Origin: a virus
Reading direction: 5' to 3' (one strand)
Virus record (IMG/VR): IMGVR_UViG_3300043449_000454
Coordinates: 1 to 22,160 of that record
Length of the DNA: 22,160 nt
The notes below the pieces were generated by a model. It was not told where the DNA came from and did not search any database. It saw nothing but the letters and a program-made list of their open reading frames with translations. Every line of letters starts with the position of its first letter. Position 1 is the stretch's first letter. Positions 326-20,342 of the stretch are shown in pieces. A program made the translations under genes and the position numbers.

Positions 326-497
326 TGACGATATGATAATCCGCAAAGCCGCACGGGAAATTTGTGCCGCGCAAGCCGCGAAGAGTGATACCCCAGGTAG
401 GACGCTGTATAGGTCTGGCGCTTGGGATGACACAGTATGGATGCGTCTGGTCGAGCAAGGCATCCGCAAGGGCATCGAGATTGGGAGGTCGCTGTGA
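315..497 (+). CDS. Hypothetical protein, 60 aa
   Basis: The ATG at 315 has a good AGGAG Shine-Dalgarno at 304-308 with 6-base spacing, inside the end of the preceding gene. The 60-residue product has an acidic start (MNNDDD), a small Ala/Lys-rich helix and a Trp-containing segment (SGAWDDTVWMRLVEQGIRKGIEIG) that looks like a short folded helical unit. The stop overlaps the next gene's GTG start (GTGA). No family is recognised; position suggests an accessory protein from a non-structural phage operon. Confidence 0.6.
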   Translation: MNNDDDMIIRKAAREICAAQAAKSDTPGRTLYRSGAWDDTVWMRLVEQGIRKGIEIGRSL

Positions 498-1015
498 ACG
501 ACGATAACAGCATCACAACCCATGCTGATATGAAATTAAGCATTAGGCCAGCCGCGCCGCCACCTCCCATCATTTCCATTATGGCAAATGATTATCGTCC
601 GTTGCTAACCATCCACCCAGACGGCACAGTGACAGGTGAGATTGAAAATGCGTCCGAAGCTGCGCGTGTATTTGTTGACCACATCCGCAAGTATATTGGG
701 GAACCCCAGACCGATGCGCGGGTAGCCGACCTGTTATTCAAGTTGGATGTAGCAGCCACGACATTCGAGAAGGTGACGACATCCGAGCATCGGGAGGCTG
801 TGTTTAATGCTGAACATGCGAAAATGCTGCGCGACACAATCAAAGCCCTCCGCCAACCCCAGACCGATGCGCTCAAGATGGCGCGGGAGATACCAGCCGC
901 TGCGTTAGATGCGCTTCGGAATGGACAAAAGCAAATTGACGCGGATGGAGAAATGGTGGGCGTATCGCGTCAAGCACTTGATGAAGTCCTCGCAGCACTA
1001 AAGGAAAGCAAATGA
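494..1015 (+). CDS. Hypothetical phage protein, 173 aa
   Basis: I take the GTG at 494 as start: it has GGGAGG at 483-488 with 5-base spacing and overlaps the previous stop. The frame runs open further upstream to 437 but has no ribosome site there. The product has a proline-rich N-terminal segment (about residues 20-30), a compact region (YRPLLTIHPDGTVTGEIENASEA) and long amphipathic helices to the C-terminus, ending ALKESK. The DNA contains an exact 18-base in-frame direct repeat at 702-719 and 855-872, so the motif PQTDA occurs twice. It looks soluble, with no signal peptide or TM. No function can be assigned. Confidence 0.7.
   Translation: MNDDNSITTHADMKLSIRPAAPPPPIISIMANDYRPLLTIHPDGTVTGEIENASEAARVFVDHIRKYIGEPQTDARVADLLFKLDVAATTFEKVTTSEHREAVFNAEHAKMLRDTIKALRQPQTDALKMAREIPAAALDALRNGQKQIDADGEMVGVSRQALDEVLAALKESK
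702..872 (+). repeat. Pair of 18-bp in-frame direct repeats
   Basis: AACCCCAGACCGATGCGC occurs at 702-719 and exactly again at 855-872, 153 bases (51 codons) apart and in the same reading frame of the 173-residue gene. Both copies encode the PQTDA motif. An exact match of this length inside one short gene is unlikely by chance. It could reflect an internal duplication whose other parts have diverged. Confidence 0.8.
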
Positions 1016-1083
1016 CAGACACTAAATGGGCTGAAGAAATAGCCGACGCAATCATTGAGAAGTACAAAGAGGAGCAAATGTAA
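1012..1083 (+). CDS. Hypothetical micro-protein, 23 aa
   Basis: The ATG at 1012 overlaps the stop of the previous gene (ATGA) and is preceded by AAAGGAAAGC, a typical Shine-Dalgarno for this operon. The frame gives 23 residues (start MTDTKWAEEIADAIIEKYKE), a predicted amphipathic acidic helix, and stops at TAA 1081-1083, overlapping the next ATG by one base (TAATG). It could be a genuine micro-protein, or a translated spacer that couples ribosomes into the synthetase-like gene, since its 3' end carries the AGAGGAG site for that gene. Confidence 0.5.
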   Translation: MTDTKWAEEIADAIIEKYKEEQM

Positions 1084-1808
1084 TGTCTGAGGCACTATTC
1101 AAGCTAGGCGGGCTTCGCTTTTGGCATGAAAGCGAAATCGAACTGCGCGAGGCCTTCCAAGCCCGCGTTGCCAATGTCATCAAGCGGAAGCTGCTGGACA
1201 TTAACCCCGCATGGCGGTTCGCTCGCTGCGAAGGCCCAATCCTGCACCCGCGTTCGCAAATCAGCGCAGCATATGACGACAGCGATATTTTCGTGACCAA
1301 CGATATTCGCGGCGGCGAAGCGCTGTGCCTGCGGGCTGAAACTACGCCCAGCAGCTATGCTTATGCGCGCTGGCTTGGTGGGAAGTTACCCCTGTGCGTT
1401 TGGCAGACCGGAATTAGTTCGCGCCGAGAGGCGAATGACGGGGCGTCAGCCAGTAAGCTGCGGTTCAATTCATTCTGGCAGATGGAGTTCCAGTGCATCT
1501 ATCGCGCCGATACGAAGGCTGATTATCGCGCTACACTGATGCCAGCGGTTGTGCGGGAAATCGAGCGCTTCACGATGAGCATGGTCCGAATTGTCCCCAG
1601 CGACCGCCTGCCCAGCTACAGCGAAAGCACTCTGGACATCGAGGCGCTCCATAACGGGTTTTGGCGCGAAATGGCGTCCTGCTCTATCCGCAACGATTAC
1701 AGTGACGAAACGCGGGTGTGTGAAATCGCGATTGGTCTTGACCGCGTTGCCACCCTTGCAAACCAAGATTACGCCGCCCGCGCCACACTACAGGAGCAAA
1801 GCAAATGA
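1083..1808 (+). CDS. Class II aminoacyl-tRNA synthetase-like catalytic core protein
   Basis: The 241-residue product carries the landmarks of a class II synthetase catalytic domain. A motif-1-like helix and strand with conserved proline lies at about 33-56 (INPAWRFARCEGPILHP). The segment LRAETTPSSYAYARWL (83-98) matches the 'LRPET' region of Gly/Thr/His/Pro enzymes. A motif-2-like loop QTGISSRREAN...LRFNSFWQMEFQ spans 108-137, and a motif-3-like EIAIGLDRVATL (214-225, Arg221) closes the fold. It most resembles the class IIa group including GlyRS. Full-length enzymes are much longer; here both an editing domain and an anticodon-binding domain are absent. By family knowledge such cores activate an amino acid with ATP, but the acceptor (tRNA, carrier protein, protein or metabolite) is unknown. 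It sits mid-operon, coupled on both sides (TAATG, ATGA), with AGAGGAG upstream. Confidence 0.8.
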   Translation: MSEALFKLGGLRFWHESEIELREAFQARVANVIKRKLLDINPAWRFARCEGPILHPRSQISAAYDDSDIFVTNDIRGGEALCLRAETTPSSYAYARWLGGKLPLCVWQTGISSRREANDGASASKLRFNSFWQMEFQCIYRADTKADYRATLMPAVVREIERFTMSMVRIVPSDRLPSYSESTLDIEALHNGFWREMASCSIRNDYSDETRVCEIAIGLDRVATLANQDYAARATLQEQSK

Positions 1809-2008
1809 CCGACCCCCTATCCAGATGGCAAAAGGGATTCAACTCAGGCGTCGAAGCTGCCGCATCCGCCTTAGAAGTTGACGCGAAGAAATGTGACTGC
1901 GCTGCACGGAAATCACGCGATTGCGCTTGCGGGGTGTGGTATGATTACAAGACCATTACATCAGCGAGGGCTATTGAGATTGTTCGCGCATTAAAGGATA
2001 GCAAATGA
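1805..2008 (+). CDS. Small cysteine-rich protein, 67 aa
   Basis: The ATG overlaps the stop of the synthetase-like gene (ATGA) and follows AGGAGCAAAGCAA. The 67-residue product has an N-terminal helix (SRWQKGFNSGVEAAASALEVDAKK), then a cluster CDCAARKSRDCACG at about 30-43 giving C-x-C-x7-C-x-C, which could bind one zinc, and a C-terminal helix ending ALKDSK. Many small phage proteins share a 'W..Gf..G...A' helix followed by cysteines, but no function is established. Tight coupling to the synthetase-like gene makes joint expression certain, joint function only possible. Confidence 0.65.
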   Translation: MTDPLSRWQKGFNSGVEAAASALEVDAKKCDCAARKSRDCACGVWYDYKTITSARAIEIVRALKDSK

Positions 2009-2667: not shown

Positions 2668-3279
2668 CTATAACCAAGTTGCGTATTTCTTGGTCTTCAG
2701 TTTGCGGTCATCAAGGCCATGTGTTCCGCCATTGATGCGCTTTGTAAGGGCAAGGATTGCAGCATCATTGATGCCTTGGTCGCAGATGCCCCACAATTTA
2801 TTGCGGTCAAAGAACCACAGCGCACTTTCGATTGCCAGTTCACCAGCCACAAGGTCAGGGTTGTCCATAATATCAGGGCGATTGATATACTGCGACAACG
2901 CCTTGTAATTGTCGTGGCCTGTCAGTTGCAGAAAGCCACGGCCACGGAATTTCCATCCATCGCCGCTGCTTTCGGGGCCATTACCCATCCGATTGCCATA
3001 AACCTTGTTGGCAATCTTGGCTGGTTGACGCTCATAGGCTTTTGCCAAGGCATCTGTCGGAAAGTATTTCCCGAAAATGCCCCGCAACCCTTTTGCTCCA
3101 TAGTTAAGGTTTTCGCTTGTGGCTTTCCAGTTGCCGCTTTCATGGGCGCACTGCGCGAAGAAATGCGCCGCACGAACCTTGTTTAGCTTATAATGTGCAG
3201 CAGCAGCCTTCAATGTAGCAGGGCCAAAAGCACCATCAGCGGGTATACCGATTTTTTCCTGTAGTTTTATAAGGCTCAT
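2668..3279 (-). CDS. Endolysin, GH19 chitinase-like family
   Basis: The 203-residue enzyme begins with a short peptidoglycan-binding-like repeat (LQEKIGIPADGAFGPATLKA, residues 6-25) followed by a GH19 catalytic domain. The signature FFAQCAHESGNWKATSENLNY spans 40-60, with Glu47 in HESG the expected general acid and Glu56 the expected second acidic residue. The segment GDGWKFRGRGFLQLTGHDNY forms the conserved substrate-binding core. Phage GH19 enzymes cleave the glycan backbone of peptidoglycan. No signal peptide is present, so release needs a holin; several small membrane proteins are adjacent. The ATG at 3279 overlaps the upstream stop (ATGA) with AGGA before it. A longer TTG-initiated reading from 3297 is possible but less likely. 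Confidence 0.93.
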   Translation of the reverse strand: MSLIKLQEKIGIPADGAFGPATLKAAAAHYKLNKVRAAHFFAQCAHESGNWKATSENLNYGAKGLRGIFGKYFPTDALAKAYERQPAKIANKVYGNRMGNGPESSGDGWKFRGRGFLQLTGHDNYKALSQYINRPDIMDNPDLVAGELAIESALWFFDRNKLWGICDQGINDAAILALTKRINGGTHGLDDRKLKTKKYATWL

Positions 3280-3782
3280 TTTCCTGCACTCCGCCAATCT
3301 GGAAAGTCGTTTTCGTCAACCACGCCATCGCCGTTGGCATCATAGCGAAGGTCGCCGCGATACTTTTCCCAAGGTTCAAGTTCGTCATCGTCATCGTCTT
3401 CTGGTTCATCAATAAACACAGTTGCCGCAGGGTCATCATAACTTGGCGCTGGTGCAACCATGTCAGGTGTAAGTGGCAGCGGGTCTGGTTGTGGCGCTAC
3501 AGGGGCCAGAGGCTCCGGCTCTGGGTCGTTGCGGTCTTCAGGTGGTGGTGGAACCAACTCGCCCTTCATGCCCATCAGCGTGGCGTATGAGCCAGCCACA
3601 GCACCAACAACCGAAGTCATAACGTATGACAGCAAGCCAAATACGTCTTTGTTGTCGATAACCTCATTTGATACGAACAGCCCGACAATCATCGCGCAAG
3701 TGATGGCAACAATGACAAACGCCATCGTCTTTGCAGCCATCAGCAACGCTTTAATCCGTGCCTCTAATAATTTATCTTCCAT
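3276..3782 (-). CDS. Two-TM protein with Pro-rich linker and EF-hand/dockerin-like C-terminus
   Basis: The 168-residue product has two hydrophobic segments at about 19-38 (MAFVIVAITCAMIVGLFV) and 47-72 (VFGLLSYVMTSVVGAVAGSYATLM). A Pro/Glu/Asp-rich linker follows (about 75-135, including a run of five Asp), then a C-terminal acidic loop DANGDGVVDEND at 148-159. That loop has acidic or Asn residues at positions 1, 3, 5, 9 and 12 of a calcium-binding EF-hand, and is close to half a dockerin repeat. Directly upstream of and overlapping the endolysin, it could be the holin or an anchor that presents a calcium-responsive tail; this is inference. GGAATAAGG precedes the ATG, 2 bases after the neighbouring stop. 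Confidence 0.75.
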   Translation of the reverse strand: MEDKLLEARIKALLMAAKTMAFVIVAITCAMIVGLFVSNEVIDNKDVFGLLSYVMTSVVGAVAGSYATLMGMKGELVPPPPEDRNDPEPEPLAPVAPQPDPLPLTPDMVAPAPSYDDPAATVFIDEPEDDDDDELEPWEKYRGDLRYDANGDGVVDENDFPDWRSAGK

Positions 3783-3784
3783 CC

Positions 3785-4315
3785 TTATTCCTTTCCTGCC
3801 AGCGGGTTTGCCAGCGTCTTTTGGATACGTTCTTTCGTTTCAGCTTCCAGTTCCTTGATACGGCGCTGTTGCTCTTGGTCTTGTTGACGCAATTGGTCAA
3901 TTACCGCCCGTTGCATCGCCATATTCTGTGCATCGCTACTGCGAACGCTACTGCTTACAGCGTCAACAGTCTGGCGTGTTGCACCAACGCTGCTTGATAT
4001 GCTGCCAGTTAGATAGTTCAGCGCTTCGCTGTTCCCCTTGGTTAAACGCTCAACGCTTGTGACGCGCTCATCAAGAACGGAAATGCGCCCTTCAATGCCA
4101 GACAGGTCGGGCGGCACATAAGCGGCGGTCACTTCCTGCATGGTTAGGAATTGCTGATACACTTGGAAACCAGCCCACAGGCCACCAAGGATTGTCGAAA
4201 AAGCCGCAAAGATAATAGCAATCTTGCCGCTGCTTAGGCCACCGATGTTAAAGCTAAAGCCGCTTTCGTCAAAGGATACCTTGGGTTCGTCTTTTTCTTC
4301 ATTTGTATTGGGCAT
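3785..4315 (-). CDS. One-TM protein with long coiled coil (spanin/holin-module candidate)
   Basis: I choose the ATG at 4315 (176 residues) because GGGAG lies 8 bases upstream; an ATG at 4342 has no visible site. Both overlap the end of the NIDO-like gene. The product has a cytoplasmic-looking acidic N-terminus, a TM helix at about 31-53 (IAIIFAAFSTILGGLWAGFQVYQ), then a long helical region with coiled-coil heptads: RISVLDERVTSVERL and, near the end, IDQLRQQDQEQQRRIKELEAETKERIQKTL. A single TM followed by a periplasmic coiled coil resembles an inner-membrane spanin, but no outer-membrane lipoprotein partner with a lipobox is visible. Role in lysis or envelope remodelling is inference. Confidence 0.72.
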   Translation of the reverse strand: MPNTNEEKDEPKVSFDESGFSFNIGGLSSGKIAIIFAAFSTILGGLWAGFQVYQQFLTMQEVTAAYVPPDLSGIEGRISVLDERVTSVERLTKGNSEALNYLTGSISSSVGATRQTVDAVSSSVRSSDAQNMAMQRAVIDQLRQQDQEQQRRIKELEAETKERIQKTLANPLAGKE

Positions 4316-5810
4316 CAACAATCTCCCGCCATTTGGCGTCATTAGTTTGGTTCATCCGATACATTTCAAAGTCAGCGTCACGCAGCCTTCTGTTGCGGTA
4401 TATATCACGCACAGCGTAAAAGTCAGCCCTGTCAGATAATCCCGCTTGTCGGTAAGCGTTAAATGCAGGAACAGAACCCATTTCGGCAATCGTATCTGAT
4501 TGCCCTTCTGCCATTTCATTGTTTGATTGGTCTGCCGATGCAGTAGGCGCGGTAACAACGGGGCGACTTCCCATGCTGTTCAGCACTTCAAAATTGCTTG
4601 TGACAGACATAGGACTGCTAAATGAAACGGCGGCATCAACGCCAGAACCAGAACCACTTGCGGCGTTGCTGATAGATGCGCTTGCCGAAGCTTCAAACCT
4701 GACTTGCACGGATGCCACATTTTGAACGCCACCAGCGCTGTCCTCGAACGTCGCTGAAGCTTGTTGCGACATATCTGGCTCTAAGCCACCAGTTGCCAAA
4801 TCTTGCGCCTGTGGAGCGTTTTCTGGGCCTGTGGCGGCAAGTGCAGCTACTTGGTCGGGCGATAGTCGTTCTGCTTCGGTTTTTTCGGCCACGGCAGCAC
4901 GTTCAACGGCAACTTCAACCGCTGCCTCAACCGCAGCTTCGACAGATGCGTTTGCCGTTTCCAATGCCTGTTGCGCCACTTCAAGCACCTGTGCGATGTC
5001 TTCGACATTTTCGATGCTATCGACCATTTGCGTTTCTTCTATCGCCTCTTGCTCGACCGAAGCCACGGCAGCTTCTAATGCGCTTTCCGTTGGGTCAGGT
5101 GCGCCGACATCAATAGCAATGGATGCTGGTGGGCAGGATGGGTGCAGCGGCGTTGCATTGCAATCAATCACAACTTCATCAGGGATTGGCGAACCATAGG
5201 TCAACAGGCCCGATTGGTTTTGCAAGAATTGCGGATTGCGCCCGTAAAAAAGCGGCACGTTGTCATCCGCTTCTGGGCCAGTAATGCCAGCCGTAAAGTC
5301 GCGCCAGCCAGAGGCAGTCAAAGAACCATAGTTAAATTGAATATTGCCGTTGCTGAACAGCCCGATTTCAAACGTATTTAGGTTGTTCGTGCCATATTCC
5401 TGCACGTTATACCAACCGAACAAGGCTGAACCATCGCTTAGGCGATAGTAAGGGTTGCCAGTGAAGCTGATAAGGTCTGACCAGTATGCGTAAATCGTGT
5501 TGCGCTGCGCTTGTTCAATAGGCTGGCCATTGCAGCATAAATGGTTGCCGCTTTGAAAGGACACAAAGCCATTGCTCGATACCCAAACATCGGTGAAGGT
5601 CTGGCCCCAATATTCAAATTCAAAACCAAGGTTGATGCGCCGTGTGCTATCGTCGCCAAGGTTTAAGGGCGTCATCGTCGTGGGAGCGCCGATTATTTGC
5701 GGCGTCAGCAAGGTTGGGTCGTATGTTTGGGCAGACGCAGATGCGCTTACCAGCAATGCAGCCGATAAAGATATGATGCGCTTATTCAGCGTCAGGGCGG
5801 CGGTCAGCAT
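4299..5810 (-). CDS. Secreted NIDO-like domain protein with Ala/Glu helical region, 503 aa
   Basis: The ATG at 5810 begins a clear signal peptide: MLTAALTLNKR, hydrophobic core IISLSAALLV, then SASASA with probable cleavage before QTYDP (about residue 27/28). The frame extends upstream to 5930 inside the neighbouring gene, but that part has no signal peptide or ribosome site. The mature N-terminal ~200 residues resemble a nidogen-like (NIDO) extracellular domain: GFEFEYWGQTFTDVWVSSNG, then NTIYAYWSDL, and a repeated beta pattern ending FTAGITG. A helical Ala/Glu/Val-rich stretch follows (about 240-335), then a Ser/Ala/Gly-rich linker and a charged C-terminal domain (YRQAGLSDRADFYAVRDIYR). It is probably exported to the periplasm or surface. 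An exported adhesin-type protein in a phage late operon is unusual. Confidence 0.78.
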   Translation of the reverse strand: MLTAALTLNKRIISLSAALLVSASASAQTYDPTLLTPQIIGAPTTMTPLNLGDDSTRRINLGFEFEYWGQTFTDVWVSSNGFVSFQSGNHLCCNGQPIEQAQRNTIYAYWSDLISFTGNPYYRLSDGSALFGWYNVQEYGTNNLNTFEIGLFSNGNIQFNYGSLTASGWRDFTAGITGPEADDNVPLFYGRNPQFLQNQSGLLTYGSPIPDEVVIDCNATPLHPSCPPASIAIDVGAPDPTESALEAAVASVEQEAIEETQMVDSIENVEDIAQVLEVAQQALETANASVEAAVEAAVEVAVERAAVAEKTEAERLSPDQVAALAATGPENAPQAQDLATGGLEPDMSQQASATFEDSAGGVQNVASVQVRFEASASASISNAASGSGSGVDAAVSFSSPMSVTSNFEVLNSMGSRPVVTAPTASADQSNNEMAEGQSDTIAEMGSVPAFNAYRQAGLSDRADFYAVRDIYRNRRLRDADFEMYRMNQTNDAKWREIVDAQYK

Positions 5811-7293: not shown

Positions 7294-8196
7294 TTATGCA
7301 GTCCCGTATGCAGTGACGTTATTGACGGCGGTAAACGCACCCGCGCTGCTTAACTTCGCAATGGTCGTGCCGTTGTATTTAAACAACAGGTCAGTGCCGC
7401 TTTGCTCGACAGTAAAGTTTGCAGCCGCCAGCTTTGTCGCATTGGTCGCGTTGGTAGCATTGGTTGCGTTTGTTGCGTTTGTTGCGTTTACTGCGTTTGT
7501 CGCATTGGTTGCGTTCGTTGCAGTCGCGGCAGTTCCGCTAATGCTGATTGCCCAAGTGCCAGTTGCGTTCGCGCCACCCGTCGAAGGTGCGCCGATTGTG
7601 TTATAGCTAATCGTTCGTGCAGCCGAGCCGTTAAACGTGCCACCAGCCGCCACGCCATCGCCACCGCTGCTAAATGTCACAGCAGCCGCAGTTGCCGTTG
7701 CTGTTGTCGCAGTCGTTGCCGTGGTCGCAGTCGTTGCCGTTGCAGCATTGCCCGTTACATTGATATTCCAAGTTCCGCTTGCGCCACCGCCAGTCAGCGA
7801 AGGCACAGCAAGGTTTGTTCGCGCACCAGCGGCATCAGAAGCGCCCGTGCCGCCATTGGCAACCGCAAGGTCAGTGCCGCTCCATTGGTCGTTGTTGATT
7901 GTGCTTAAAACAGCCAATGAACCAAGGCCAAGGGCAGTCCGTGCGCCAGATGCGCTATTCGCACCAGTGCCGCCATTAACAAGCGCAACGATACCACTGA
8001 CGTTATTTGCGACCACATTCCAGTTGCCGCTTGCGTTAGAGCCGTCGGCGCGTGACAATGCGCGGCCACCGACAGTCGCGCCATCGTGAACGTGAATTGT
8101 ATCGGTGGTGGTGTTGACCGTTATTTCGCCTTCGACGCCAGTAAAACTCGCGTGTTGGGTTGTCGTGCCGCGACGAATTTTTACTTGCTTACTCAT
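7294..8196 (-). CDS. Tail fibre with NAT and TAT repeats, 300 aa
   Basis: The N-terminal region ([39 protein letters not shown], residues 5-43) is the common phage fibre attachment module also seen at the N-terminus of tropism-determinant proteins. Two GGTGA stalk repeats follow ([19 protein letters not shown] and [18 protein letters not shown]). Low-complexity collagen-like stretches then appear: TAT repeats around 155-170 and about eleven NAT tripeptides around 225-258. The C-terminus stops abruptly after a stalk segment NNVTAYGTA. In the other fibre of this window the matching NVTAY is followed by a self-cleaving chaperone, absent here. The start overlaps the previous stop (ATGA). Confidence 0.88.
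7435..7528 (-). repeat. Tandem 9-bp repeats encoding Asn-Ala-Thr
   Basis: About ten to eleven consecutive imperfect copies of a 9-base unit (TGTTGCGTT, TGGTCGCGT and similar on the plus strand) encode NAT tripeptides in the fibre stalk. The units vary mostly at third codon positions, so selection keeps the tripeptide. No spacers are present. Confidence 0.85.
7677..7752 (-). repeat. Tandem Thr-Ala repeats in fibre stalk
   Basis: The plus strand shows repeated GTCGCAGTCGTTGCCGTGG units, encoding alternating Thr-Ala-Thr tripeptides in the same fibre. Exact repetition of a 15-18 base block (GTCGCAGTCGTTGCCGT) at about 7708 and 7726 suggests recent duplication. Confidence 0.75.
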
Positions 8197-8798
8197 GCTA
8201 TAAAACCCCAGTCATCAGTTTCGGTGTATACTATATCAATTTGCGACCAATCTTCATAGCCGCTTGAAAATGTAGCAACGTAATTTGCCAAGCCTTGCAA
8301 CGACAACGAAAACGTCCGTGCGCTTGCATAGAACGACAAAGCCTTGCTTTCAAAAACGGCCTGTCCATCGTTACGCAATGGGCTTGGGTTTACAGTTGGA
8401 ATAGTCGGGCGGTTCGGGTCAACGACACTTGGGTTATCAACGTCCGTTTGCCCATCAATCCAAGATGCGACAGTGTTTGCATCGGATATAAACGGATTAA
8501 ATGTTGCCAGCATATCGTCGATAGCATCGGCCAAAGCTTGACCAGCAAAGGGCGGGTTAGTTGGCGTGGCGCTGATAAAGTTCGTTACTGTTACGGGCGC
8601 TGAACCGCTAACAGGGCCAAGGTCGCCCCAATCGTTCGGGTTAAACTTGCCAGCGTTTAATGTCGCAGAAACGCTGTTGCACTGTGTCGCAAAGCCATCT
8701 TGCGCGTCAAGAAAAGCAAGGCTTTCTGTGATAAAATTGCTGGGGTCGCCCAATCGTGAAGGCGATGCTGGCATTGCTGAAATTGTTGTAATGGCCAT
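8193..8798 (-). CDS. Probable minor structural protein of the tail/fibre module, 201 aa
   Basis: The N-terminus ([46 protein letters not shown]) matches a pattern I know from phage tail-fibre-adjacent proteins: 'L.a.PsrsdP.tF...adafl..lp.f...~n', a helical connector that joins a fibre to the tail. The middle is Pro/Asn/Asp-rich and the end ([27 protein letters not shown]) is beta-like. It lies between the tail-tip-like protein and the repeat fibre, overlapping both neighbours (TAATG at its start, ATGA at its end). A role as adaptor or short fibre is likely by position. Confidence 0.7.
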
Positions 8799-9697
8799 TA
8801 AATCAACCCTTCAACAGACAACGAACATTCCGATATTGTCGGGCCTGATAGCACAATCGAGAAGTCGCGGTAATAGCCTAAAACAATCGTTTCGCTTCGG
8901 TTTTCGTCACCGATGTAAACAACAGGCGTTGTGCGAACGGATGCCAGAAAGCGGGTGAACGCGCTGACATCGCTTGTTTCAACAGTTACGTCATAATCAG
9001 CACGTTTGCTGTAGGCCCGTGGCGTGATGGTTACGTTGCCAAAGTCATCAATGGTTTTGACCGAATAATCTTTAATGCCAACCGATGTGCCGAAATTGGT
9101 GACAGCCAGCGCAGACTTTTGACCGATGATAAATTCGCCGCATGAAGCCGTGCCAGCGCCAGCATCAATGATAAGCTGGAACGATGCACCCGAATAATTT
9201 GGAACATCCAAAAACGCGACTTCAGACGCGCCCGTTTCGGTTATCGGCGCGAAGAAATAATTAAAATAGCCGTTAATGGCGCTGTAATCTGCAAGGCTGA
9301 TTGTTTCATCATAAACAGTCGTGCCGCCAGATGATTTAACGATAAGCTGTGCGCTCGACCCATCGACGTTGAATAGCACCACGGCATTGCAGACTGTCGC
9401 TGGCGTTACTTTGACATCAATCGTGCCGCTGTTTTGTGTGCCAGAGCCGACAGATATATCGAACATCTTAAAGCGGTTTGTCGCGCTCACAAAAATCCAT
9501 GTAGGCGATATTGCAGCCGCACCGACATCAGGTCGGTCAGTTGTGGATGTGGCAACCACTTCATAAATCTTATGGTCGTATATACGGCGCGTTCCAATCG
9601 TATACGTGCCAGCCGTCCATGCGGGATAATCAGTTTCCGCAACATTCGTGGCTGTCAGGTTGGATGCCGTAACAGTGACGGGCTTAATAATAATCAC
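8798..9697 (-). CDS. Tail-tip or adhesin-like protein with carbohydrate-binding-like segment, 299 aa
   Basis: The GTG at 9697 has GGGAGG (complement of 9704-9709) 6 bases upstream and overlaps the end of the tape measure gene; the frame opens further to 9733 without a better site. Residues about 20-60 (YPAWTAGTYTIGTRRIYDHKIYEVVA, then PTWIFVSATNRFKMFD) have the W-x-x-GTY-x-x-G...Y...A pattern of small chitin/carbohydrate-binding modules. The remainder is beta-rich, ending YYRDFSIVLSGPTISECSLSVEGLI. As the first gene after the tape measure it takes the slot of the distal tail protein, but I see no clear Dit family signature. Alternatives are a baseplate hub or adhesin. Confidence 0.72.
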   Translation of the reverse strand: MIIIKPVTVTASNLTATNVAETDYPAWTAGTYTIGTRRIYDHKIYEVVATSTTDRPDVGAAAISPTWIFVSATNRFKMFDISVGSGTQNSGTIDVKVTPATVCNAVVLFNVDGSSAQLIVKSSGGTTVYDETISLADYSAINGYFNYFFAPITETGASEVAFLDVPNYSGASFQLIIDAGAGTASCGEFIIGQKSALAVTNFGTSVGIKDYSVKTIDDFGNVTITPRAYSKRADYDVTVETSDVSAFTRFLASVRTTPVVYIGDENRSETIVLGYYRDFSIVLSGPTISECSLSVEGLI

Positions 9698-12600
9698 TTG
9701 CGTCCTCCCGAATGTCAGGCAACCCGTCACCATCCCACCTGTCCATCAATTCGTATGATTTACCAGTGTTCTTGGCGACTTGATACAATACGTTATACAT
9801 TTCATTCCGCATATTGCTTATGCCGTCAGCGGTTTCGGCGCTATTGCTTGCCATGCTCGTTTGATTGCCGTCGAAGACAAGCCCTGCGCCAGTGGTGGCG
9901 GCTTCTGCATTGCTGGCATTTTGCGCTCCCAATGTTTCGCTAAGGCTTGCCGATAGCCATGCACGGATACGGGCAACTTCAAGCGCCGATGTTGCCGAAC
10001 CAAGTGTGGCTTCTTCAATCGAGCGGCTAAGTTCTGGCAGCTTGCCAAGGGCTTCCAGATTGCCTGTCCTCGCTTGTGCAGTAAGGGTAGCAAACTGCGC
10101 CTTCAACAATACCGACGATGAGGATGCATTGATGCCGCGCAGACGATTGATTTCGTCAACGACAGTTTGGCTAACATTCGCAAGCGTATCAGCATACTTT
10201 TGCATAGCATCAGCAGCGTCTTGCGCGGCCTTTTCTTGCACCTTGGCAGCGTCTTCAGCCGCCTTCGCAGCCGCAGCGTCGGCTTCAGCCTTAGCTTGTG
10301 CAGCCCAGATTTGCTCTTTCAAACCACGAAGGCTGGCTTCAGTGGCTTCCAGTTCTATTGCGCGACGAGCAGCAAGCGCTTCCACAGCAAAGCCCTGCGC
10401 TTCAAGAAGCTGGATTTCCAATTCACGGCGGTCAGCAGCCAGTTTAGCAGCGGCTTCAACTTGCTTGGCCTGTTCTTCAGCAAGAGCCTTGGTCGCGGCG
10501 GCGGCTTCATCGGCGGCACGTTTAGCGTCAATCGCGGCCCAGATTTGCTCCTGCAATCCACGTAGGCTTTCATCCATCGCGGCCAGTTCAATCTTGCGCC
10601 GTTCTGCCAAAGCCCCGCTGCTATCGCCAAGCGCTTCCATCAAATCAATTTCAAGCGAACGCCTATCGTTTGCCAAAGCCAGTGTCGCTTCAGCCAATGC
10701 AGCAGCTTCTTCAGCAGCCTTTTGTTGTGCGTCAGCCAATTCCTGCGCTGCCTTTGAAGCGTCTTCAGCGGCATATATTTGCTCTTGCAACCCGCGAAGG
10801 CTTGCATCCATGCTTTCAAGTTCAAGCGCACGTTGTGCAGCCAGAGCGCCAGTTGCATTGCCCTGCGCTTCCATTAACTGGATTTCCAATTCACGGCGCG
10901 GCCTGTTGGCTTCAAATGTAGCCTTGGCTTGCTTGATGGCATACAATTCTTCAAGCTTGGCATAATCAGCCGCAGTCGCGCCAGCTTCCTTAAAGATAAC
11001 CTTCAGCTTTTCCATTTCGACCGAAAGTTCATCAAGGCTAAATTGCAGTGGGTCGCTTTGGCTTTGCAAGTCTTTAAACACTTGGTCGAACTTCAGCGCC
11101 TTTTGCACCTGTTCGTTTAAGTCATTGCCAGCACGGATAAGGGTCTGCGCCCCAGCACTAATACCCGTGACAATCCCTTGCTGGATTGCCAGTTGCGTTA
11201 CGTATGCAACCGCAGCGGCTTCATCTGTGCCAAAGTTTTTAACGCCAGCGCCTTTAGTGCGGCCAGCGCCAGTCGGGTCAACAACGTAATCCTTTTTACG
11301 CATACCAAGGCTGACCTTGACGTTGCCACCCAATACGCCGCCAAGTTGCTCTGCGATGTTGCCCAAGCCCTTTAGCAAGCCATTTGCCATATTATTGGCG
11401 ACATCTTTCAGAGCCGCGCTGTTACCCGTCAACGTGCGTTCCATAGCGCCGCCAGCGATTTGGTTTAGTGTAACAGAACCTGTCTTGGTCTTCTTCATTA
11501 AGCCGCCAATGACACCGCCCAAAATGCCGCCAGCCAAAGCGCCAAGCGGCCCAGCAAACTTACCAAGTTCGGGCGCAATTTTTGCCAAATTATCCGTTAG
11601 CAGTTTTTTGCCCAACGCTCCGCCAATGCCACCGCCGACAGTGCCGCCAGTTTTACTGCCCGTCATACCACCGACCAAATTGCCAAGCTGCATACCAGAT
11701 ATAACACTGGCCAAGGCTTCGCCTAATTGTGGGAATGTTTTGGCAATGGCATCGCTAATTTTTTGGGTTGAGCCATCAGCTAATTCCACTTCCATTTTGA
11801 AAATGCCTTGCAAGGCGCGTCCGCCCTTTCCGCCAATCATGCCAGCGGCAGTTTCAAGGTTGTTTGCAAGGGTTTGCAGGGCTTGAATGTCTTTATCAAA
11901 AACGCTCTTATTGTTGATGCCAGCCAAACGCGCCGCATAATATTCTTGCCAAGCTTTTTCGCCAAATTTCAACACATACGCTTCACGCTCCAAAGCCAAT
12001 GAAGCTTTTTCACGCTCCACACCAACAAGGCCAAGCAGCTTTGCTTCGCCTTTTAATGAGGTCATATTCGCATTATGCGCCTTGTTTGTTTCTTCGATTG
12101 CCTTGGCATATTCTTTAAGCTTTTCGGAAATGCCAAAAGCCATTTCCTTGGCGGCATTGGCAGCACCAACTTCGCGTATAGATGCAGCAAGTTCTTTATT
12201 TTTTAATGCCAAAGCGCCAGCAACAAGCTTTTGAACTTCAAGAGCCTTGATTTGTTCGGGCGTCTTGCCGATTTTTTCGCCTTCTTCAATCATGTCGGCC
12301 AAAGCGTCGCGGTATTTTTCCAGAGGGTCTACGGCTTTTTTGGCTGCTTCTCCAGTCGCGGCAATGCCAGCCGATGCAGCCGCAGCGGGAACAGTAATCG
12401 CAGCCATTGCGTCTGCTTGCTCTTTAAGAACATCCGCTTCCTTTATACCAATCCTTAATGCGTCCAACCGCTCTTGCTTTGCGGCGACCGTGCTGGCGAC
12501 ATATCCCGCGCCTTCCGCTTGACCACGAGCGCCTTGCGCTGATTGCTTTTGCTTAAGCAAGCGAATGTCACGTTCTAATAAACGGGCTTCTAATTCGCGT

Positions 12601-13751
12601 TCAGTTCTGGCTTGTGCCCAGCCCACAGACCTTGCTTGCGACAACGCCTTTAGCGATGCAATGTGTCCATTGGTTTCTTCACGGGCGCGTGACTGCGCTG
12701 TAGCAAGCGAATATATTGCGCCGACCAATGCGCCAATAGCTACCAATGCCAAGCCCCATCCAGTCGAGGCAAGCGCGGCCTGTAATCCCTTAATGCCAAC
12801 GCCAGCCAATGCGCTGGCTGTAGTTGTTGCACCAAGGGCAATGTTAAGCGCCATCATTTGCGTGATATATGCAACGATAGCTTGTATGCCCAAGGCAGCA
12901 CGAAATGCGACAAAGGCAGCGGCCATGCCAGCAACGGCAACCATTGTTACTTCAATGGCGCGTAAAATTGAATTTAAGTTCGTCGTTAAATATGTGACCG
13001 CAGAACTTGCGGCAGTTAACGCTTGCGAAAATATATTGGTCGCGCCAGCATTGCCCAAGGTAACATAAAGGTTGTCAATGTTATCCTTCAGGTTCGACAT
13101 CCGACCATTAAGGGTCTTCATCTGCTCGTCCATCGCACCAGCAAATTGCGTGTTGCCGATGTTGATAAGGTATTGCTGAATTTCTTCAGAATTTTTCTTA
13201 ACGGTTGTGGACACGCCTTGGAACGTGAACGTAACAGTGTCTTTTTGCTGCTTCGCCCTTATGCCAAATTCTTTTAGGCGCTCAAATTCAAGCGTTGAAG
13301 CGTCAGCGACAGCCTCAATCATCTGATTTAAGCTTTTGCCCATTGATGCCGCCGTGTTGCCGTATGAGCGCAACGATGCCATGCTTGGGTCAAGGCCAAG
13401 GTTTTTCAGCTTTAAGAAAGCTTCGACAGTCTGGTTTAATTGATAAGGCGTGGTCGCCGCAAATTTGCGTATTTCATCAAACGCAGCGGATGCCGCAGCC
13501 GTGCTGCCAGTGGCAACCTTTAATGAGGCATTGAGCGATTGAAATTCAGCATTGGCTTTCGCAATACCTGTAGCAAGGCCAAAAATACCGACGGCAGCAA
13601 GAGCGCCGCCAAAAAGCTTCGCCGCATTTGTAAGGCTGTTCGCAGAACGCTCCGCATTGCCAGAAGCGCGGGACAAATTGTTTAGGTCGTTGGTTGCCGA
13701 CTTAACGTCGCGGCTATCAACTGAAATACGAAGGTTCGCTAAATCTGCCAC
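9684..13751 (-). CDS. Tail tape measure protein, 1355 aa
   Basis: The N-terminal ~200 residues carry the phage tape-measure N-terminal domain (ANAEFQSLNASLKVATGS; AFDEIRKFAATTPYQLNQTV; then ADASTLEFERLKEFGIRAKQ). Hydrophobic helices follow at about 265-350, then a Gly-rich region (LGNLVGGMTGSKTGG; GGILGGVIGGLMKK). Near 950-1180 come three 78-residue coiled-coil repeats, each with a R-R-x-L-E-I-x-L core and SLRGL[QK]EQI[WY]AA. The protein sets tail length and enters the host envelope during DNA ejection; at roughly 1.5 angstrom per residue (family knowledge) it predicts a tail near 200 nm. The GTG at 13751 lies 8 bases after AGGA; a TTG at 13757 is possible. It follows the tail chaperones as in other siphophages. 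Confidence 0.93.
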   Translation of the reverse strand: MADLANLRISVDSRDVKSATNDLNNLSRASGNAERSANSLTNAAKLFGGALAAVGIFGLATGIAKANAEFQSLNASLKVATGSTAAASAAFDEIRKFAATTPYQLNQTVEAFLKLKNLGLDPSMASLRSYGNTAASMGKSLNQMIEAVADASTLEFERLKEFGIRAKQQKDTVTFTFQGVSTTVKKNSEEIQQYLINIGNTQFAGAMDEQMKTLNGRMSNLKDNIDNLYVTLGNAGATNIFSQALTAASSAVTYLTTNLNSILRAIEVTMVAVAGMAAAFVAFRAALGIQAIVAYITQMMALNIALGATTTASALAGVGIKGLQAALASTGWGLALVAIGALVGAIYSLATAQSRAREETNGHIASLKALSQARSVGWAQARTERELEARLLERDIRLLKQKQSAQGARGQAEGAGYVASTVAAKQERLDALRIGIKEADVLKEQADAMAAITVPAAAASAGIAATGEAAKKAVDPLEKYRDALADMIEEGEKIGKTPEQIKALEVQKLVAGALALKNKELAASIREVGAANAAKEMAFGISEKLKEYAKAIEETNKAHNANMTSLKGEAKLLGLVGVEREKASLALEREAYVLKFGEKAWQEYYAARLAGINNKSVFDKDIQALQTLANNLETAAGMIGGKGGRALQGIFKMEVELADGSTQKISDAIAKTFPQLGEALASVISGMQLGNLVGGMTGSKTGGTVGGGIGGALGKKLLTDNLAKIAPELGKFAGPLGALAGGILGGVIGGLMKKTKTGSVTLNQIAGGAMERTLTGNSAALKDVANNMANGLLKGLGNIAEQLGGVLGGNVKVSLGMRKKDYVVDPTGAGRTKGAGVKNFGTDEAAAVAYVTQLAIQQGIVTGISAGAQTLIRAGNDLNEQVQKALKFDQVFKDLQSQSDPLQFSLDELSVEMEKLKVIFKEAGATAADYAKLEELYAIKQAKATFEANRPRRELEIQLMEAQGNATGALAAQRALELESMDASLRGLQEQIYAAEDASKAAQELADAQQKAAEEAAALAEATLALANDRRSLEIDLMEALGDSSGALAERRKIELAAMDESLRGLQEQIWAAIDAKRAADEAAAATKALAEEQAKQVEAAAKLAADRRELEIQLLEAQGFAVEALAARRAIELEATEASLRGLKEQIWAAQAKAEADAAAAKAAEDAAKVQEKAAQDAADAMQKYADTLANVSQTVVDEINRLRGINASSSSVLLKAQFATLTAQARTGNLEALGKLPELSRSIEEATLGSATSALEVARIRAWLSASLSETLGAQNASNAEAATTGAGLVFDGNQTSMASNSAETADGISNMRNEMYNVLYQVAKNTGKSYELMDRWDGDGLPDIREDASDYY
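10197..10898 (-). repeat. Three tandem 234-bp (78-codon) repeats in the tape measure gene
   Basis: Repeat 1 spans 10898-10665, repeat 2 10664-10431, repeat 3 10430 to about 10197. Each begins with an Arg-Arg pair followed by Leu-Glu-Ile, and contains SLRGLQEQI or SLRGLKEQI at about offset 33. The first two are exactly 78 codons; the third decays after about 50 residues. Such units in tape measures change tail length in steps. Confidence 0.85.
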
Positions 13752-13767
13752 GCGCAATATCCTGTTA

Positions 13768-17443: not shown

Positions 17444-18412
17444 TTAAGCAGCAGAACCAATCGCCATAACACCAGCGGTATGCTTGATGGACGTTGCAAC
17501 CTTGTCCCAGTTGGAACCAGTTGCAAGTTCAGCATCCGTTGGCGACTTGCCGCCATTGGTGATGTCCCAAGTGTAGCCCTTCAAAGCCACGCCAAAGGTG
17601 TAATCGACCTGCATCGTGGTTTCGATGCGGGTCTGACCGTTGTTGGTTTCGATGTTGCTGATAACGTCGCCGCCGTCATAAACGATTGCTGCGCTGTCTG
17701 CGAGGCCAAGAACACGGTTCTTGTTTGGTGTGCCGGAAACGAACAATGCAGGAGCATCGGTCACGATGACAGGACGGCCAAGGATGTCCACAACTTGAAC
17801 ATTCTGTGCAACGAACAACTGTGCGCCGTTCGTTAAGTTCTGACCAATCAGCTTGTGATAGCTGTCGCCGTTCATGACGTTTGCAACGATGCTCGACGAA
17901 TTGTCGCCAAACAAAGCGTTTGCGCTGTTCATTGTGGCATAGGTGACAGCACCAGTGCCAGAAACGTCAACAGTCGTTGCAGCGCCTTGGTTGGCAATCG
18001 CAGCAGCAACAGCGGCAATCGCAGTGTTAAGCTGGTCAGCCATCAGTGCTTCAGCAAAGTTACGCGATGCAACTTCGATGCCTTCCGACGTTGGCTTCTG
18101 CAACCATGTAAGCTGCGAAGGTTCAAAGCGGATAGGGCCAAAGCCACCAGCAACCTTTACGCCATTAAGCTGGAGTTGCGTCAGGTCAGTTGCGGTAGCC
18201 GATGCTTGCGAAGCATAACGGTCAACACGACGCTGTGCGCTATGCACGGCAGCGAAGAAGCTTTCCTGATAGAAGTCGCCGTCAAAGCCAGTTGTGGTCA
18301 AACGGATTGCGCCGCCAGATGCTGCATTGAACTTCTCGACCATTTGGGCAAGAGTTTCGATGGTTGCTGGCATAACGTATTCGTTAAATACCTTCATTTG
18401 CGAAAGTGACAT
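17444..18412 (-). CDS. Major capsid protein, 322 aa
   Basis: The gene follows scaffold and precedes the neck genes, the standard place. The 322-residue product has an N-terminal helical part (SQMKVFNEYVMPATIETLAQ), a long helix (EVASRNFAEALMADQLNTAI) and a beta-rich body (NVQVVDILGRPVIVTDAPAL; RIETTMQVDYTFGVALKGYTW), consistent with an HK97-type fold and its E-loop, A and P domains, although the fold cannot be proven from sequence alone. AGGA lies about 10 bases before the ATG. It assembles the icosahedral shell around the scaffold. A strong terminator after its stop fits its need for the highest expression in the operon. Confidence 0.87.
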   Translation of the reverse strand: MSLSQMKVFNEYVMPATIETLAQMVEKFNAASGGAIRLTTTGFDGDFYQESFFAAVHSAQRRVDRYASQASATATDLTQLQLNGVKVAGGFGPIRFEPSQLTWLQKPTSEGIEVASRNFAEALMADQLNTAIAAVAAAIANQGAATTVDVSGTGAVTYATMNSANALFGDNSSSIVANVMNGDSYHKLIGQNLTNGAQLFVAQNVQVVDILGRPVIVTDAPALFVSGTPNKNRVLGLADSAAIVYDGGDVISNIETNNGQTRIETTMQVDYTFGVALKGYTWDITNGGKSPTDAELATGSNWDKVATSIKHTAGVMAIGSAA

Positions 18413-19116: not shown

Positions 19117-20139
19117 CTATAGTCGCTTCAACTGCGCCAAAGTCAGCGGATTGCCACGTTGGTCTAACAGTTGGTTTAACGTAATCTTTCCGCTGCGCCA
19201 AAGTTCTGCGCGGCCTTTACCGAGCATCTTGTCTGCAAATTCGGGTGGTTTTCTTTTTAGGAATTGGTCAAAAGTTAGGTCGCCAGCAACAACGCCATCC
19301 ATGCTGGCGCGGGTCGATGGTTCAATACTGTCCTTAATCTTGCCGCCCGTCAGTTCCTCGAATGATTTAGTAATCGGGATAAAACTGCTTCGGCAATTCC
19401 AATGCGCGGGTGGGCCACCATTCCACGGTATTTTGTGACCGATGGGCTTAAAGTCGGGATATGTCCATGTCTTGCCCGAACGCACAACGCATATTTCGCT
19501 GGTGCGGCTATCAAGGGTTGAAACCCATTGCACTGCCTTGATGATGTTGGAATTTGCTTCCAGTGATGCCAGCCTTGCGTCTTTCGCTACAGTTTGAACG
19601 GCTGTGCGGGTAATCGCCATTGCATCGCGCCGCGCCTTGGCAATCGGTTGACCGCCCTTGTCGCCCACGCCGATAAGTTCCTTGGCAATCTGTGCGTTGG
19701 TCTGCCCAAGCAAGACGCCGTTTTTAACAACGCGCTCAATGTCGAAACGGGCGCTTTCGTTTAAACGGGAGAACCAGTTGCCGATTGTCGCGCCTTGTAT
19801 CAGGCTGCTTTGTGCAACGCTTTCCAATACTGTCGCAGAAGGCAGCACAGCGTCGATACCGACGTTGACCATAGCATCCCTAAAGAAACCCGCTTCCGCC
19901 GTTGTCAGGTCGGTTAAATCAGGCTCTTTGACCGTTACGATGTTCTTTAGTTCGGCAATGGCCTTATCCAGCCGCTTGCCTTGGTATTCGGTAAACTCCT
20001 TGCCTTTTAATTGCTTTTGCAGTGCAGCGGCAATTTCATCAAGCTGCTTGTTTAGCGCAGCACTTTGCCCAGCAATAACCCGCTCTAGTAGCAGTTGCCG
20101 GATGATGGTCAGGTCAAGGAGTTTATCCGATACGTTCAT
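19117..20139 (-). CDS. Head morphogenesis (SPP1 gp7/Mu F-like) minor head protein, 340 aa
   Basis: The C-terminal half carries the family signature: VSTLDSRTSEICVVRSGKTW (about 206-225; Asp210, Cys217) and GGPPAHWNCRSSFIP (241-255, with His246 and Cys249), the Cys/His set conserved in SPP1 gp7 and phage Mu F-like proteins. The N-terminal half is helical (IRQLLLERVIAGQSAALNKQ; AALQKQLKGKEF). The end (ELWRSGKITLNQLLDQRGNPLTL) contains a motif common in these proteins. These bind the portal and help head assembly or DNA exit. The ATG overlaps the upstream stop (TGATG). It implies that the portal and terminase lie further upstream, beyond the window. Confidence 0.9.
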   Translation of the reverse strand: MNVSDKLLDLTIIRQLLLERVIAGQSAALNKQLDEIAAALQKQLKGKEFTEYQGKRLDKAIAELKNIVTVKEPDLTDLTTAEAGFFRDAMVNVGIDAVLPSATVLESVAQSSLIQGATIGNWFSRLNESARFDIERVVKNGVLLGQTNAQIAKELIGVGDKGGQPIAKARRDAMAITRTAVQTVAKDARLASLEANSNIIKAVQWVSTLDSRTSEICVVRSGKTWTYPDFKPIGHKIPWNGGPPAHWNCRSSFIPITKSFEELTGGKIKDSIEPSTRASMDGVVAGDLTFDQFLKRKPPEFADKMLGKGRAELWRSGKITLNQLLDQRGNPLTLAQLKRL

Positions 20140-20342
20140 CAATTAGGTTTTTCGATTTGCGCCTGTGCTTGTTGCATTAAATTGCGAATAAGCGGGTCAG
20201 AAATGCGGTGCGGCAATTCACCCAATGCGCGGAACAAGAGGTTAATCTCATCAACGGACATTGTGATGTGCAACTGCGGCTGTTGCATTGATTGCGGCGC
20301 GTGTTGCTGCGCTTCGTCGTATTGGTCTAATTCGGGGTTCAT
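20139..20342 (-). CDS. Small hypothetical protein between minor head and structural genes, 67 aa
   Basis: The 67-residue product has a Gln/Pro-rich acidic start (MNPELDQYDEAQQHAPQS; then MQQPQLHITMS) and a helical core (VDEINLLFRALGELPHRISDPLIRNLMQQAQAQ). It overlaps both neighbours (4 bases with the upstream gene). Similar 'L...LG.LP......lI..i..Q' small proteins are frequent in phage head modules, but no function is established. It may be a subunit-regulating or accessory head protein. Confidence 0.7.
   Translation of the reverse strand: MNPELDQYDEAQQHAPQSMQQPQLHITMSVDEINLLFRALGELPHRISDPLIRNLMQQAQAQIEKPN

Follow-up and report, generated by a model that had tools for sequence, protein, structure and literature searches.

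A single-domain, GlyRS-like class II synthetase core in a phage accessory operon and its relatives in phages and alphaproteobacteria

The DNA analyzed here (the window) is the complete 22,160-nt stretch of the viral record IMGVR_UViG_3300043449_000454. In this 22-kb viral fragment, a short set of + strand genes, among them the one for a small synthetase-like protein (mini-GlyRS), faces a long - strand block of structural and lysis genes:

437..1015, + strand: 192-aa ORF, the upstream operon neighbor on the same strand as the synthetase gene
1083..1808, + strand: mini-GlyRS coding sequence, a single-domain class II aminoacyl-tRNA synthetase core of 241 aa with an ATG start
1805..2008, + strand: 67-aa ORF whose ATG overlaps the stop codon of the synthetase gene (ATGA)
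2668-3297, - strand block: endolysin
9684-13757, - strand block: tape measure
17444-18412, - strand block: major head protein
19117-20142, - strand block: head morphogenesis

Because a tape measure, a major head protein and an endolysin are encoded, the window can be assigned to a phage, and its head protein resembles those of siphophages of approximately 40-60 kb (the ~50-kb type), such as TCUAN1, Pkon1, and PS-1. No tRNA genes are found in the 22-kb contig. The 192-aa ORF has no family match, while the 67-aa ORF, which is likely coupled translationally to the synthetase gene through the ATGA overlap, is not conserved among the relatives of the synthetase locus.

The initial annotation described the product of 1083-1808 as a free-standing class II core encoded among the accessory genes of a phage operon, without anticodon-binding parts and with its catalytic residues intact, and this description is borne out. 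The segments that it quoted (LRAETTPSS at 83-91, R114/R115/E116, LRFNSFWQMEFQ at 126-137, and IGLDR at 217-221) all lie at those positions in the translation. An alignment of 84 sequences, with rows from the window, IMG/VR and genome loci only, was fed to AlphaFold, and the resulting model of the window protein has a mean pLDDT of 95.5 and a pTM of 0.91. Foldseek matches this model to class II synthetases at a probability of 1.00, and the 50 best PDB matches are all class II synthetases, including Mtb GlyRS (8t5n). The class II fold thus held when checked by structure prediction, as did the best family match and the arginines of motifs 2 and 3, and none of the contrary outcomes named in the initial annotation occurred.

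PheRS and ProRS rank close to GlyRS in Foldseek, which alone does not single out GlyRS, and the family assignment comes from profile comparisons. A family profile search returned GlyRS at 9e-18, followed by SerRS (6e-7), PylRS (9e-6), and ProRS (1e-5). The GlyRS model is matched by 23/23 members, more than any other model, and in individual NCBIfam scans it ranked first for the window protein (1.6e-6) as well as four other members. The EpmA/genX model (EpmA/PoxA, LysRS-type), in comparison, is matched by one member of the 23 at E=0.15. The scores themselves are low: the window protein reaches 27.2 bits, below the curated GlyRS family cut-off of 312, and as a single sequence searched against Pfam it matches PF00587 at a sub-threshold 22.2 bits (cut-off 29.3). 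On these comparisons the nearest characterized family is the alpha2-type GlyRS, so that the earlier label of a "GlyRS/ThrRS-like core" stands as regards a synthetase core but is too generic, the protein being GlyRS-like specifically. By domain content and score mini-GlyRS falls outside GlyRS proper, yet it most likely works like GlyRS.

The elements of the catalytic core that support this view are as follows:

1212..1250, + strand: motif 1 region, residues 44-56, a dimer-interface element placed by alignment, with Glu50 and Pro52 (80/84)
1329..1358, + strand: LRAETTPSSY, residues 83-92, with E86 (83/84), equivalent to the glycine amino-group binder Glu165 (Mtb)/Glu245 (human)
1392..1493, + strand: motif 2, residues 104-137, with R114 (Mtb Arg197), E116, the loop, R127, F131, Q133 (Gln214), E135 (Glu216), and Q137 (Glu218 in GlyRS)
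1599..1637, + strand: lid, residues 173-185 (SDRLPxYSxxTxD), the counterpart of the [AS]HY[AS] lid in GlyRS, with Y179 invariant
1662..1697, + strand: WxExxSxSxRxDY, residues 194-205, with E196, R203 (T. thermophilus Arg311/human Arg410), and D205 invariant
1716..1754, + strand: motif 3 region, residues 212-224 (VCEIAIGLDRVAT), with E214 (Mtb Glu324/human Glu522), A216 (Mtb Ala326), and the motif 3 arginine R221

The first inventory of motifs was correct for motifs 2 and 3 but did not mention motif 1, whose proline P52 is present. Of the two motif 2 arginines it listed, only R114 is invariant (84/84); R115 is variable. In the window and its relatives L009 and L010, the segment before the motif 2 arginine reads GISSRRE as opposed to GKSFRRE in the family (residues 111-113, window 1413-1421), with Ser in place of the usual Phe just before the arginine.

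In Mtb GlyRS with glycyl-AMS, Arg197 and Gln214 hold the glycyl carbonyl, Glu216, Glu165, and Glu324 hold the amino group, Ala326 excludes side chains, and the [AS]HY[AS] lid (Tyr264) closes over the ligand (PMC12208437). Human GlyRS uses Glu245, Glu296, and Glu522, two of which are contacted by Arg410, and the Glu296 position is shared by class II enzymes generally (PMC4938167). When mapped by alignment of the 84 sequences, as opposed to superposed coordinates, Mtb Arg197, Gln214, Glu216, Glu165, Glu324, Ala326, and Tyr264 correspond to R114, Q133, E135, E86, E214, A216, and Y179. Of these, R114, Q133, E135, E214, and Y179 are present in 84/84 sequences, as is R203; E86 is present in 83/84, with the single exception in the metagenome-assembled contig L028; and A216 is present in 82/84, with Ser in the other two. 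The buried Glu218 of GlyRS is replaced by Gln in 83/84. Some of these positions recur in other class II enzymes, but E214 together with an Ala/Ser gate is, at the level of sequence, the GlyRS combination. Since GlyRS is the closest family and the glycine-binding residues are conserved, homology predicts that mini-GlyRS converts glycine and ATP to glycyl-adenylate, and it is quite likely that glycine is indeed activated in this way. The resemblance could be read differently: many of the 23 members also match SerRS and HisRS models, the WxExxSxS segment is SerRS-like, and the Phosso copy was deposited as a serine-tRNA synthetase, all of which would suit activation of another amino acid (serine, alanine or other), with the likeness to GlyRS reflecting ancestry only. 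Given the GlyRS-type glutamate triad and Ala gate, the invariance of E214, and a family-profile match to GlyRS that is ten orders of magnitude better than the one to SerRS, this alternative is improbable.

Outside the catalytic core, little of GlyRS is left. The insertion domain (Mtb 88-143) has no counterpart, motif 1 and the RxETT segment being only ~30 residues apart; neither does the beta-hairpin linker anywhere in the 241-aa protein, nor the anticodon-binding domain (Mtb 341-463), as the protein ends 20 residues after motif 3. Because the insertion domain is absent, the A76-stacking Phe of GlyRS lacks a counterpart as well. The claim that both anticodon-binding and editing parts are missing therefore holds for the former only: GlyRS naturally has no editing domain to lose, and it is the insertion domain that is absent instead. 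Retention of the motif 1 proline makes a dimer likely, and mini-GlyRS is probably homodimeric, judging from this residue.

The search of phage genomes suggested with the initial annotation uncovered a family. Proteins that share 33-50% identity with the window protein across >90% of its length are encoded in 19 phage records (a 20th match, at E=0.9, was spurious and was left out of the count) and in 104 viral contigs, with Dolichocephalovirinae, Mimasvirus, and huge phages among the carriers. Another 75 loci lie on genome contigs, mostly alphaproteobacterial, with soil bacteria among them and chromosomal copies included. The copy on a Devosia plasmid is labeled "aminoacyl--tRNA ligase-related protein," and names deposited elsewhere range from aminoacyl-tRNA synthetase, serine-tRNA synthetase, and RNA synthetase class II to hypothetical. 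None of 23 members finds a convincing family in PHROGs, where the best E value, 0.0056, was reached by two of them, and a literature search for phage GlyRS and stand-alone phage synthetases, which covered few subscription journals, found no description of the family. The gene is under purifying selection: dN/dS is < ~0.1 in the window clade, where synonymous sites are saturated and dN is 0.13-0.18, and 0.05-0.16 in bacterial pairs. Together with the relatives in phages, viral contigs, and genomes, these low ratios show that ORF 1083-1808 is not a chance reading frame.

In bacteria, the gene is accessory. Within the Rhizobium group, 48 of 100 sampled genomes match, mostly with intact copies, and the broken or fragmentary ones (L081, L101, G098:C1, G104:C27, and G038:C2) indicate that the gene is dispensable there; it is an accessory chromosomal gene, in decay in some cases. 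No alpha2-type GlyRS scores above cut-off in six sampled alphaproteobacterial genomes, and their alpha2-GlyRS-like matches over the catalytic region are to the mini-GlyRS gene alone, making it the only alpha2-type protein in these six. This distribution bears on the suggestion that the protein interferes with a host enzyme. A non-charging regulator or competitor of host GlyRS or of another host enzyme, analogous to HisZ, would fit both the domain loss and the non-essential, patchy distribution, as expected of a repurposed fold. However, catalytic residues have not been lost in the manner of HisZ, those for catalysis and substrate being essentially invariant across phages and bacteria, and the alphaproteobacterial genomes tested offer no alpha2-type GlyRS above cut-off to interfere with. 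A regulatory role is thus highly improbable.

In a quick tree with a midpoint root, the closest companions of the window sequence are L009, L010, L103, and L105. Copies from Rhizobiales and Phenylobacterium make up a single clade that sits within the phage sequences, a placement that is suggestive only as to the direction of transfer. The window and the phages closest to it by synthetase (G025, G024, and G029) have only this gene in common, plus one weak match (30% identity), which indicates that the gene moves between unrelated phages. For the same reason, and because its capsid is that of ~50-kb siphophages, the closest synthetase relatives of the window phage were rejected as a guide to its tRNA content.

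If glycyl-adenylate is formed, the question becomes which acceptor receives the glycine. In the reading that we favor, mini-GlyRS is a minimal single-domain class IIa synthetase derived from the alpha2-type GlyRS core, which would load glycine onto the CCA end of tRNA. With the insertion and anticodon-binding domains gone, it could recognize the acceptor end at most. Since acceptor-stem minihelices suffice as substrates for GlyRS and HisRS, a core that lacks the anticodon domain could be functional. Phages rich in tRNAs would have their own tRNAs charged, and the smaller phage of the window would use a host tRNA; anticodon-independence and use during infection are inferred. Every near-complete phage record examined carries tRNAs (62 in Phosso, 32 in XbC2, 28 in CcrBL9, 27 in G025, and 25 in Domovoi), and at nine loci a tRNA lies ≤100 bp from the mini-GlyRS gene, as in the arrays of L138, L149, L151, and L134. 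Genuine CysRS (above cut-off) overlaps mini-GlyRS by 4 nt in L125 and is also encoded close to it in the Phosso clade; in L103, a close relative of the window, the gene has a genuine SerRS 1.3 kb upstream; and a T4-type RNA ligase is encoded ≤6 kb from the gene at 11 loci of several clades. As raw counts, these adjacencies are suggestive of a link to tRNA. The proximity is not universal, as the gene is ≥16 kb from any tRNA in Domovoi, CcrBL9, and G025, and among the bacterial loci a single tRNA-Ser, in L052, is the only tRNA nearby. A preference for tRNA-Gly as gene neighbor was rejected after comparison with the tRNA composition of 20 loci: it is the nearest tRNA in 2/20, with 2.9 expected (p=0.84), and shows no enrichment. 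The phage tRNA array upstream of mini-GlyRS in L020 also contains a bacterial-type RNase P RNA (1621-1943, Rfam 179.6 bits).

An alternative possibility is that glycine (or alanine) is activated and passed to something other than tRNA, either a small molecule or a protein, which could be a carrier protein or another protein of host or phage; the initial annotation preferred acceptors of this kind, naming carrier proteins and EF-P. All tRNA-recognition domains are absent, the window phage has no tRNA in 22 kb, R2K ATP-grasp enzymes adjoin the gene in the Phosso clade and XbC2, and on alphaproteobacterial chromosomes, including about half of the sampled Rhizobium-group genomes, mini-GlyRS is a lone accessory gene with no tRNA cluster close by. 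Despite this, no conserved protein partner or carrier protein lies next to the gene, and almost every locus has a different ORF downstream. The 67-aa ORF of the window was rejected as an acceptor protein, as the CcrBL9 ORF of the same size bears no similarity to it and other loci differ. The amino acid:carrier-protein ligase model is matched by 1/23 members at E=0.12, and the neighbors that do recur are tRNAs, CysRS/SerRS, and RNA ligase, that is, translation and tRNA-repair genes. A non-tRNA acceptor is accordingly rather unlikely, although it carries more weight than the other alternatives considered here, and a tRNA 3' end is on balance the likelier acceptor. For glycine activation and a tRNA acceptor taken jointly, the chances are about even.

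Other neighbors appear to be incidental. NAD salvage genes (Nampt, NMN adenylyltransferase/Nudix, NadR, and PnuC) are found in the mini-GlyRS region of three separate phage lineages:

L104:4580-5599 and 8146-9528: NAD salvage genes
L001:2192-4710: NAD salvage genes
L005:605-2450: NAD salvage genes

A functional link to NAD salvage (Nampt, NadM) was discarded as a coincidence of the accessory region, as these genes lie near mini-GlyRS in L104, CcrBL9/BL47, and XbC2 only. On the Devosia neptuniae plasmid (L278:3995-6718), a HipA-domain gene and an HTH regulator gene are directly downstream of mini-GlyRS. HipA targets GltX in E. coli; the adjacency on the plasmid is probably a coincidence.

The most telling parallel for tRNA as the acceptor of mini-GlyRS, albeit by analogy, is a second stripped class II core, a HisRS-like protein of 196 aa without an anticodon domain (Phosso XYS97181.1), found in Phosso, G019, G128, and LR745206:

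L281:1597-2187 (Phosso 4096-4686): mini-HisRS
L282:11014-11580: mini-HisRS
L283:9712-10266: mini-HisRS
L287:2501-3010: mini-HisRS
L288:2501-3013: mini-HisRS

Several of these phages also carry mini-GlyRS. In Phosso the mini-HisRS gene is 275 bp from tRNA-His, in G128 it stands between two flanking tRNA-His genes, and in G019 it is part of an array of 51 tRNAs. Unlike mini-GlyRS, it has HisRS motifs (RYERP..GRYREF and RGLSYYT) and represents a separate family. Other phage proteins of ~185-217 aa, uncharacterized or unnamed, have a predicted class II core fold in BFVD: K7QJG2 (Escherichia phage phAPEC8), A0A141HRQ2, A0A2I7SAH4, and A0A292GIB7.

In some jumbo phages, the neighboring tRNA is an amber (CUA) tRNA:

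L004:5591-5666: CUA tRNA near mini-GlyRS
L121:5528-5602: CUA tRNA near mini-GlyRS
L122, L123, L124, L132, L133, L136, L143, L111, and L151: further CUA tRNAs near mini-GlyRS
XbC2 292074-292147: CUA tRNA elsewhere in the genome

In an eight-member clade (L121, L122, L123, L124, L132, L133, L136, and L143; tree support 99) and in Phosso, the CUA tRNA is the only tRNA ≤6 kb from the gene. Combined with the precedent of PylRS cores for anticodon-blind class II enzymes, this raises the possibility of a synthetase with a specific phage tRNA partner, for example the CUA tRNA in one jumbo-phage clade and other partners elsewhere. The CUA tRNA is, however, absent from the window and most other mini-GlyRS lineages: a pattern search found none in 13 sampled bacterial genomes carrying the gene, and ARAGORN scans found none in Domovoi, CcrBL9, G025, and G024. 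The CUA tRNAs of the clade and of Phosso carry G73, and the closest non-CUA relative of the adjacent Phosso tRNA is tRNA-Trp, not tRNA-Gly. TAG is a normal terminal stop in the records checked, Phosso included, where the frames opened by reading through TAG show no clear excess in length over those behind the other stops. The jumbo Xanthomonas phage XacN1 likewise has CUA tRNAs for which its authors found no readthrough targets (PMC5852040). As a universal partner the CUA tRNA was thus rejected, and a specific phage tRNA as the true partner is improbable. The fullest version, in which mini-GlyRS and mini-HisRS charge by the acceptor end alone and the jumbo-phage clade pairs mini-GlyRS with the CUA tRNA to place glycine at UAG, is a long shot; if true, the pairing would be a natural orthogonal suppressor system.

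The question of the acceptor is common to >100 genes that are unlabeled or vaguely labeled. If a tRNA is charged, mini-GlyRS would be a natural synthetase cut down to its catalytic core, the living equivalent of the "urzymes" made in the laboratory, which have been used to argue that early synthetases read the acceptor stem only. Phages would then bring a GlyRS type absent from their hosts (alpha2 rather than alpha2-beta2), and orthogonal tRNA pairs could be developed from a small anticodon-blind enzyme. With an acceptor other than tRNA, a new glycine-transfer activity would be spread over phages and Rhizobiales.

Among known systems, alpha2-type GlyRS (class IIa; PRK04173/TIGR00389; Mtb 8t5n, T. 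thermophilus 1ati/1b76) has the same catalytic core with motifs 2 and 3, the glutamate triad, the Ala/Ser gate for glycine, an xY[SA]-type lid, and the equivalent of Arg311/410. Mini-GlyRS differs in being half as long, in lacking the insertion domain, beta-hairpin linker, and anticodon-binding domain, in having Gln at the buried Glu218 position, and in scoring far below the family cut-offs. The full-length synthetases of huge phages, whose standard annotation was confirmed by TIGRFAM HMMs, have been proposed to charge phage tRNA variants (PMC7162821). These are phage-borne translation genes like mini-GlyRS, which falls below cut-offs of the TIGRFAM type. In a HisZ-type regulatory paralogue the catalytic residues are free, whereas mini-GlyRS keeps R114, E116, and R221 in 84/84; HisZ itself regulates HisG. 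The amino acid:[carrier protein] ligases of Bradyrhizobium and Agrobacterium are atypical SerRS-like enzymes that can use glycine, and they too are class II cores without a tRNA-binding domain found in Rhizobiales, but their model reaches a single member of the family and mini-GlyRS has no conserved carrier-protein neighbor. Finally, the catalytic core of PylRS (delta-N PylRS type, ~270 aa) is a single-domain class II protein of similar size and a second-tier profile match. Mini-GlyRS departs from it in its profile (9e-6 for PylRS vs. 9e-18 for GlyRS), in its glycine-type pocket, and in a window without tRNA-Pyl context, while PylRS cores of ~270 aa provide the precedent for anticodon-independent class II charging.
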